NCBI GenBank assembly: GCA_021555105.2
Contig: CP134604.1
Span: 2,418,001 to 2,482,000, forward strand
Direction: 5' to 3'
Source of the DNA: Thalassospiraceae bacterium LMO-JJ14
Lineage (GTDB): Bacteria > Pseudomonadota > Alphaproteobacteria > Rhodospirillales > Casp-alpha2
DNA length: 64,000 nucleotides
Shown: positions 60,125 to 62,017 of the stretch, one piece after another
Layout of the letters: every line of letters begins with the position of its first letter
Position numbering within the stretch: the first letter of the stretch is position 1
The notes under the pieces: model-generated
The model's database searches: none
What the model was told of the DNA's origin: nothing
What the model saw: the letters and a program-made list of their open reading frames with translations, nothing else
Translations under genes and position numbers: made by a program

Positions 60125-62017
60125 TTAATCCACAATGCGCCACGAGCCGCGCCACTCCTGCGGCGGCAGCCAGGTATCGCCCGACAGCCGTTTGGTGAGT
60201 GAATTCGCGGTTTCCTCGGTCACATCCTCGGGCACACGTTCGCGCAGGTGCGACACCGCTTTCTGCCAGAACGAATTAATGTCCTCGATACGTTTGATCA
60301 GGGTTTCCGTCGCCGCATCCGGGTCTTCGTCCGCATCGTTCAGTACCTTCCGGCCCACCAGCAGCGCTTCGCGTGCCTTGCTCCAATCCCCATCCAGATA
60401 AGCCTTAACCCCCTTGTCGAAGGCCATCAGGAAGGCCACCGGCATGGGCTGGATGTCGACCGTGTACAGGTTAAGCGGTTCCTTATGGCCAGGCATCAGA
60501 ATACGGTCGATGCGGCGGCACAGAACTCTGCGATCGGCGCTCAGGCAATCGTAAAAAGCATCACTGACAAGAATTTGCGTGCCGTACATCGCATTCAGCG
60601 ATTCCAGCCGGGACGCCAGATTGACGTTGTCCCCGATCAGCGTGGAATCAGCACGATCGTCGTCGCCGACCGGCCCGGCCACGACCAACCCCCAGTGCAG
60701 GCCGAAACGGGTGTCGAATCGCTTCCTGTTTTCCCAGCCGTCCTTGCCTTCGAAAAACTCTTCCCATACGCCGCCGGCGACTTCCAGCGCCTCGGAAAGC
60801 TTGCGCATCTCGACAGCGGCATCGAAAGCGGCGTTAGCGCTGGTGCGCGGATTCTCGTTGTTGTGAAAGTAGGCGAAGATGCCCTCGCCGAGAAACTTGT
60901 CGATATCGCCGCCGTGCCGGCTGACACCCCGGTTCATCTCGCCCAGATAAGTCTTGAGCACCGGCAGGATGTCTTTTTCCAGTTCATGCGTCATGGCCTG
61001 GAACCCGGCCACATCGGTGAACATCAATGCCACCGGCGAACGGGTAGGGATCACGCGCTCGCCCTTGGCTTCGAGAAACGCGCGACGGCTGATGAAGCGG
61101 CGCAGGTTGGAAATGATCATGCTGATGGCTTCGATCAGTGTATCGATTTCGTTCAGCTTGCGGCCTTCGCTTTCTGCTTCCTCGGCGCGGCGCTGGATGA
61201 CCGCATCGGCGTCCTCGAGCCCCGGAATTTCGCGCATCTTGGCGAGTATGACCTGATTGGCCTCGTGCAGGCGGTCCATGAATATCTTGCCGACGCGCTC
61301 GACGTTGCGTTCCGCTTTCCACCGAACCGCATAGACCATCGCCGCATAAATGATGACTTCCAGCACCGGGTCGGTGATATGAACGTAACTGCCGATCGAA
61401 AAATCGCCGAGCATACTGATCAAAAGCAGGATACCGACCGCATACCATGCATCGTCACGGCCCATCGAGGTCAGCATTTCCGCACCCAGCACGGTTTCGC
61501 GGGTGCCGACTTTCTGCACCAGACCGACCTTGGCGACGGCGCGCACGGTCCTGAGAATCCGCAGCACCCGTGGGTTGGCGATGCCGGTATTGCCGGCCAG
61601 GAACGATGCGCCGGTGGCGCCGACGGCAAGGATGTTGATCCACGCTGCGGGGGTCTTGAAATATTTCATGCCGTAAGCCAGCGCGCCGACGCAAATATCG
61701 AACATGAAGAAAATGCCCATCAGGGCTTCGACCCAGCGCGCCGCCTCGACCGACCATATCAGTTCCGTCGTGCCGCTGAGCATTTCAAGGAATGCCGCGA
61801 TGGGGGCGAAAAATACTGCCAGATAGGTGGCGGCGAGGTTCAGCCGCTCATACCCTTCGTTTTCGGCAAGCCGCAGCCAAAGGCCTTTGTCGGGTTCGGA
61901 CTGCTCTGCGGCGGCGGCAATTTCATGGCTGAGCGGAATGCGGCCGAACAGCGCATCGTAGCGATCCTGATTCAATATCGATGACGGATCGTCGTCGTTG
62001 ATGTTCTGTTCCGCCAT
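60125..62017 (-). CDS. class III adenylate/guanylate cyclase with voltage-sensor-like membrane domain
   Basis: 630 residues. The membrane domain (about 58-235) has four to six helices. Its fourth carries R150, R153, R156, R159 and K163 (PRVLRILRTVRAVAK), the every-third-residue pattern of an ion-channel S4 voltage sensor. A coiled coil follows (about 235-310). The cyclase domain (about 325-500) shows the metal Asp D335 in FTDVAGF, K374 and a Glu (E378) where the second metal Asp is usual (KFLGEGIF), T459, and the transition-state N466 and R470 in GDNVNLASRLE. K374/T459 suit ATP over GTP. A helical tail of about 130 residues ends it. The product cAMP or cGMP is not proven. Confidence 0.85.
   Translation of the reverse strand: MAEQNINDDDPSSILNQDRYDALFGRIPLSHEIAAAAEQSEPDKGLWLRLAENEGYERLNLAATYLAVFFAPIAAFLEMLSGTTELIWSVEAARWVEALMGIFFMFDICVGALAYGMKYFKTPAAWINILAVGATGASFLAGNTGIANPRVLRILRTVRAVAKVGLVQKVGTRETVLGAEMLTSMGRDDAWYAVGILLLISMLGDFSIGSYVHITDPVLEVIIYAAMVYAVRWKAERNVERVGKIFMDRLHEANQVILAKMREIPGLEDADAVIQRRAEEAESEGRKLNEIDTLIEAISMIISNLRRFISRRAFLEAKGERVIPTRSPVALMFTDVAGFQAMTHELEKDILPVLKTYLGEMNRGVSRHGGDIDKFLGEGIFAYFHNNENPRTSANAAFDAAVEMRKLSEALEVAGGVWEEFFEGKDGWENRKRFDTRFGLHWGLVVAGPVGDDDRADSTLIGDNVNLASRLESLNAMYGTQILVSDAFYDCLSADRRVLCRRIDRILMPGHKEPLNLYTVDIQPMPVAFLMAFDKGVKAYLDGDWSKAREALLVGRKVLNDADEDPDAATETLIKRIEDINSFWQKAVSHLRERVPEDVTEETANSLTKRLSGDTWLPPQEWRGSWRIVD

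Follow-up and report, generated by a model that had tools for sequence, protein, structure and literature searches.

Whether the membrane domains of cyclases sense voltage is a question as old as their first sequences, and it is raised by a gene in the window, by which we mean the whole stretch of 64,000 nucleotides from Thalassospiraceae bacterium LMO-JJ14 that was analysed here (source genome: a single contig of 3.89 Mb). The first-pass annotation had placed at 60125-62017 a nucleotide cyclase joined to an S4-like voltage sensor. An open reading frame is indeed present at these positions on the minus strand and codes for 630 amino acids, in which a voltage-sensor domain, a pore-less S5-S6 hairpin, transducer helices, a class III cyclase and a C-terminal tail follow one another. 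We lean towards the view that the product is a membrane-bound class III cyclase, probably cAMP-making, whose sensor is a pore-less S4-type voltage-sensor domain fused to the enzyme. The parts of the gene are as follows.

60125..62017 (-), whole gene, 630 aa; based on the open reading frame, two Pfam domains above their cut-offs and synteny
61778..61858 (-), S1, residues ~54-80; based on hydropathy and a model helix of low confidence
61655..61759 (-), S2, residues ~87-121; E97, F104 and D107 invariant, at positions of the gating-charge transfer centre
61595..61651 (-), S3, residues ~123-141; invariant N128 at the usual Asp position, based on channel alignments and conservation
61514..61573 (-), S4, residues ~149-168; ladder R150, R153, R156, R159, K163
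61460..61513 (-), S4-S5 linker, residues ~169-186; invariant VLGA..L..M, based on alignments
61409..61459 (-), S5, residues ~187-203; followed by a loop of ~14 residues without pore helix or filter
61232..61369 (-), S6 running into a cytoplasmic helix, residues ~217-262; based on the low-confidence model
61043..61156 (-), transducer or coiled-coil helix preceding the cyclase, residues ~288-325; highly conserved NLRRFIS.R.F.EAKGE
60458..61039 (-), class III cyclase domain, residues 327-520; D335, K374, E378, T459, N466 and R470, based on Pfam, the 3r5g/1wc0 alignment and conservation
60128..60457 (-), C-terminal tail, residues 521-630, ending in PPQEWRGSW; less constrained

Membrane domain, S4 ladder and missing pore

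The combination of an S4-type voltage-sensor domain with a class III cyclase and without a pore, as first proposed for this gene, is backed by profile matches, fold comparison, conservation and signs of selection. Residues 88-178 match the Pfam family Ion_trans with 27.6 bits against a curated cut-off of 25 (E 2e-6), a narrow margin that has to be counted against our preferred explanation. Two congeners also match Ion_trans (2.3e-6 and 2.2e-6), the most distant relative does so below the cut-off (E 3.4e-4), and no such match was obtained with five further class III cyclases of the genome that served as a control. When compared with solved structures, the single sequence of residues 40-206 retrieved only voltage-gated sodium channels (best E 0.0011), and a profile of residues 44-314 retrieved voltage-gated channels and one haloacid dehalogenase (best E 0.0036; dehalogenase E 2.1). 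S2-S4 could also be aligned with the genome's own four channels by profile comparison (P 1.6e-4, probability 50%). A weak match in the class-level genomes (G357, E 2e-4) is, judged by its sequence, an ordinary voltage-gated channel and thus lends further support to homology.

The full-length fold model was too poor for use (pLDDT 49), and the model of residues 44-314 is itself of low confidence (pLDDT 57), which counts against the sensor reading. In a structural comparison with the latter, all 50 of the 50 listed entries were voltage-sensor proteins, Ci-VSP included, with Z scores of 11.8-13.4 and an rmsd of mostly 2.5-3 A over ~123 residues; as a Z of 13 is within reach of helical bundles through their arrangement alone, this result is support for the fold and not proof of it. 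Foldseek, run with the same model, returned channels in the top rows and SLC9C1, another voltage-sensor protein, lower down, none of them reaching E 0.001. The annotation depended on the ladder helix being part of the membrane domain, and in this low-confidence model the helix sits inside the membrane bundle and not outside the membrane. Judged from these matches, the membrane part is homologous to four-helix voltage-sensor domains.

All five basic residues that had been read as a ladder, R150, R153, R156, R159 and K163, are present in S4. The bare ladder pattern occurs three times among the 522 six-frame ORFs of the window, where shuffles predict 1.74 matches, and shuffling residues 51-240 produced it in 20 of 20000 cases; it is therefore not rare across the window but improbable inside the membrane part of this protein, and the Ion_trans match is the stronger evidence. 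The hydropathy of S4 is 0.62, with a range of 0.02-1.35 for S4 in the genome's own channels. A survey of the family, which had been suggested along with the original reading, found the ladder arginines conserved in orthologues: R150, R153, R156, R159 and a basic residue at 163 are retained in every relative that is intact and spans S4, and a distant genome with 45% identity keeps the four arginines and has Arg at position 163. Across residues 148-166 of S4, the comparison with four congeners gave no nonsynonymous and 8-12 synonymous differences.

E97, F104 and D107 are retained in S2, where the invariant F104 and D107 lie opposite the F and E of sodium channels. The three are spaced by 7 and 3 residues, as in Kv channels, where an external acid is followed by the aromatic and acidic residues of the gating-charge transfer centre. 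The S3 aspartate, which the annotation had not been able to find, is missing, and the invariant N128 takes its position when the protein is aligned with sodium channels or with the channels of its own genome. Of the classical features of a working sensor, one is thus lacking and the others are present.

Two membrane helices follow S4, one at ~187-203 and one from residue 217, and the S5-S6 loop of ~14 residues between them is too short for a pore helix and a filter. The Ion_trans match covers only positions 32-120 of the 241 in the profile, so that the suspected absence of a channel pore loop holds. A GYG-like motif (G[YFL]G) was looked for in the whole protein and was not found, and the sole GXG after TM6 is, as read from the sequence, the GEG at 377-379 within the active-site motif of the cyclase. 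The last membrane helix runs on into conserved cytoplasmic helices, after which the cyclase begins.

Cyclase domain

Residues 327-518 match Guanylate_cyc (Pfam, E 8e-17), and the match to 3r5g reaches an E value of 1.8e-21. Alignment to CyaB (3r5g) and CyaC (1wc0) assigns D335 and E378 to the metal sites, K374 and T459 to base recognition, and N466 and R470 to the transition state; we take these roles from established knowledge of class III cyclases. The substitution of Glu for the second metal Asp, which had been noticed in the first reading of the sequence, is confirmed at E378 against both enzymes. E378 is common to the genus, and Asp is found in both outgroups. In three congeners (L007, L008 and L009), the catalytic Asn at position 466 is replaced by Thr, besides the Glu at 378. 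D335, K374, T459 and R470 are invariant, and N466 is retained in the window protein. From the Lys/Thr signature, ATP is probably the substrate and cAMP the product, and the cyclase may be slow or tuned. The 16 cyclic-nucleotide-binding domains encoded in the genome are possible receivers of cAMP.

Distribution and selection

Within the genus, the gene is intact in five of the eight members, the window genome counted, and decaying in one (G042). It is absent from G045, and no match was found in G047, a genome that is only 58% complete. The gene is divided between two contigs in the sister genus (G023), and the relative in a distant genome (G174) is interrupted by a contig end. The order CobS, DnaJ-domain gene, cyclase, L28 and eno is kept in the genus. 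In G045 (L058:4370-5438), the DnaJ-domain gene adjoins L28 with ~110 bases between them and no cyclase, a clean natural absence. The decaying copy in G042 (L018:7867-9748) has in-frame stops and two frameshifts and has lost several cyclase residues; it also carries R150W, and this Trp at the first ladder position is counted in favour of the sensor reading.

Relatives on public contigs are labelled as Rhodospirillales, Rhodospirillaceae or other proteobacterial metagenome assemblies. Among 398 phylum-level genomes no relative was found beyond the window genome, and neither these nor the 385 class-level and 317 order-level genomes held any other bacterial voltage-sensor cyclase. In a pattern scan of 84,980 species, nothing but the voltage-sensor cyclase family of the window gene came up; as the scan was built on motifs specific to this family, independent fusions could exist elsewhere. 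The family is small and alphaproteobacterial.

For the window gene against the intact congeners, dN/dS is 0-0.095 for residues 51-325 and 0.065-0.076 for the cyclase where not saturated, with looser values at the ends (N-terminus 0.20-0.61, C-terminus 0.13-0.22). S1-S6, the linker and the cyclase are thus under strong purifying constraint, and the S4 ladder is conserved within it.

Mechanism, rival readings and known systems

As a part that would feel voltage is combined with a cyclase and no pore, the cell may convert membrane voltage into a chemical signal, and cyclic nucleotide synthesis is likely to be controlled by voltage, as far as the sequence can tell. We propose that a change in membrane potential would drive S4 with its arginines past the gating centre of F104 and D107, that this motion would reach the S5/S6 hairpin and the long S6 helix by way of the S4-S5 linker, and that the transducer helices would then shift the alignment of the two cyclase domains in a dimer. 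Here we infer that S4 is mobile, that the enzyme is a dimer and that its activity would follow voltage, whichever the sign of the response. For a bacterial second-messenger enzyme that is gated directly by the membrane potential through an S4 sensor and without an ion pore, we see the chances as evenly balanced.

Counted against our preferred explanation are the Asn in place of the S3 Asp, the Glu at the second metal site and, in three congeners, the replacement of the catalytic Asn by Thr, and these same features are the starting point of two other explanations. The membrane part might derive from a voltage sensor but have lost voltage sensing, and now serve as an anchor, a dimer holder or a sensor of lipid, ligand or pH. 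The S3 acid is Asn in every member of the family, and other membrane cyclases have non-voltage anchors, for which receptor or interaction roles have been discussed (PMC12414865). A plain anchor would, however, have no need of a charged S4, and yet the helix shows no amino-acid change in the genus, and all four arginines, the basic residue at 163, F104 and D107 persist even at 45% identity; we regard a loss of sensing as a serious but rather unlikely explanation. That the cyclase is weak or inactive in the genus, so that the sensor would act on a pseudo-enzyme with, for example, nucleotide or partner binding as its output, appears improbable to us. The genus-wide E378 and the Thr at position 466 in three congeners could be read in this way, all the more as both outgroups have the canonical residues, but Glu preserves the carboxylate, D335, K374, T459 and R470 do not vary, the window protein has kept N466, and the dN/dS of the cyclase is as low as given above (0.065-0.076).

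It could also be argued that the likeness of S4 to a voltage sensor arose by chance in an ordinary multi-pass cyclase anchor that bears a basic helix, given that ~1.7 bare motifs are expected in the six-frame ORFs of the window and that confidence in the fold model is low. Since the hydropathy of S4 falls within the range of the genome's own channels, Ion_trans is matched above its cut-off and the sequence and structure matches are voltage-sensor proteins, we give this very little weight. Our preferred reading of a cyclase with a pore-less S4-type voltage sensor can be set beside several known systems. The alveolate adenylyl cyclase/ion-channel fusions (Paramecium, Tetrahymena, Plasmodium ACalpha) likewise combine six membrane helices, an S4-type sensor and a class III cyclase in one chain. 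They are described as having a K+-channel motif, with GXG after TMD6 (Weber 2004 and Schultz 1992, via PMC10651576, PMC3283738 and PMC12414865; GXG in PMC3283738). The parallel to ciliates drawn in the first-pass annotation is apt in this architecture, but the K+-channel motif described for the alveolate enzymes is missing here, where the host is bacterial and neither pore loop nor motif is present; the comparison is drawn at the level of architecture. Ci-VSP also has a pore-less voltage-sensor domain that controls a cytoplasmic enzyme (structural match 4g7y, Z 12.0), but its phosphatase follows the sensor directly, whereas the window protein has a cyclase with two extra membrane helices in between. 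The protein resembles NaChBac, NavAb and Nav1.5 in the sequence of S2-S4, the ladder and the F/acid pair, and differs from these sodium channels in the lack of a pore helix and selectivity filter, the S3 Asn for Asp and the C-terminal cyclase. It shares with CyaB and CyaC a catalytic domain with the Lys/Thr base-recognition signature, but has E378 at the second metal site and a different kind of membrane sensor.

A review from 2023 lists channels, Hv1, the voltage-sensing phosphatase, the sperm exchanger and the alveolate cyclase with a K+ pore as proteins with voltage-sensor domains (PMC10651576). According to a viewpoint from 2025, mammalian membrane cyclases have no S4 helices, and dual-function channel cyclases are apparently restricted to protozoa (PMC12414865). 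We found no report of a bacterial voltage-sensor cyclase in the open-access literature; sequence databases may hold unremarked annotations of the domain pair. To our knowledge, neither a voltage-gated second-messenger enzyme outside eukaryotes nor a pore-less voltage-sensor cyclase has been known before, and the window protein, if our reading is true, would be the first of both. It would connect the dynamics of bacterial membrane potential to a second messenger in a single protein and offer a scaffold for voltage-controlled cAMP tools. As a small bacterial protein with natural variants, a decaying copy and an absence at the same locus, it makes the voltage question directly testable.

Other roles and origins were considered and rejected. 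The same genome encodes a six-helix K+ channel with a cyclic-nucleotide-binding domain (L032:1066-2277 (-), G000:C1 ~3.848 Mb), alongside another K+ channel and two genes that resemble those of sodium channels. A partnership between L032 and the cyclase found no support, as the gene-bearing congeners match only its channel part, in shorter frames, and the version with the nucleotide-binding domain is thus not kept together with the cyclase gene. An origin from a mobile element or phage was also dismissed: the membrane part has no relatives in plasmids or viral contigs, and phage matches are confined to the linker-cyclase part. The PADLOC PycC models match each class III cyclase tried (L002-L006 included), so that a PycC match alone is no sign of Pycsar; they hit all six of the genome's cyclases and fit the other five better than the window protein, and the neighbouring genes encode CobS, a DnaJ-domain protein and L28, with no cognate effector gene adjoining. 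A role in Pycsar defence was therefore discarded. The window protein ends in PPxxWxGxW (60128-60160), and the class III cyclases L002, L003 and L005 of the genome have similar PPxxWxG tails, which are perhaps a C-terminal feature common to several of its cyclases.
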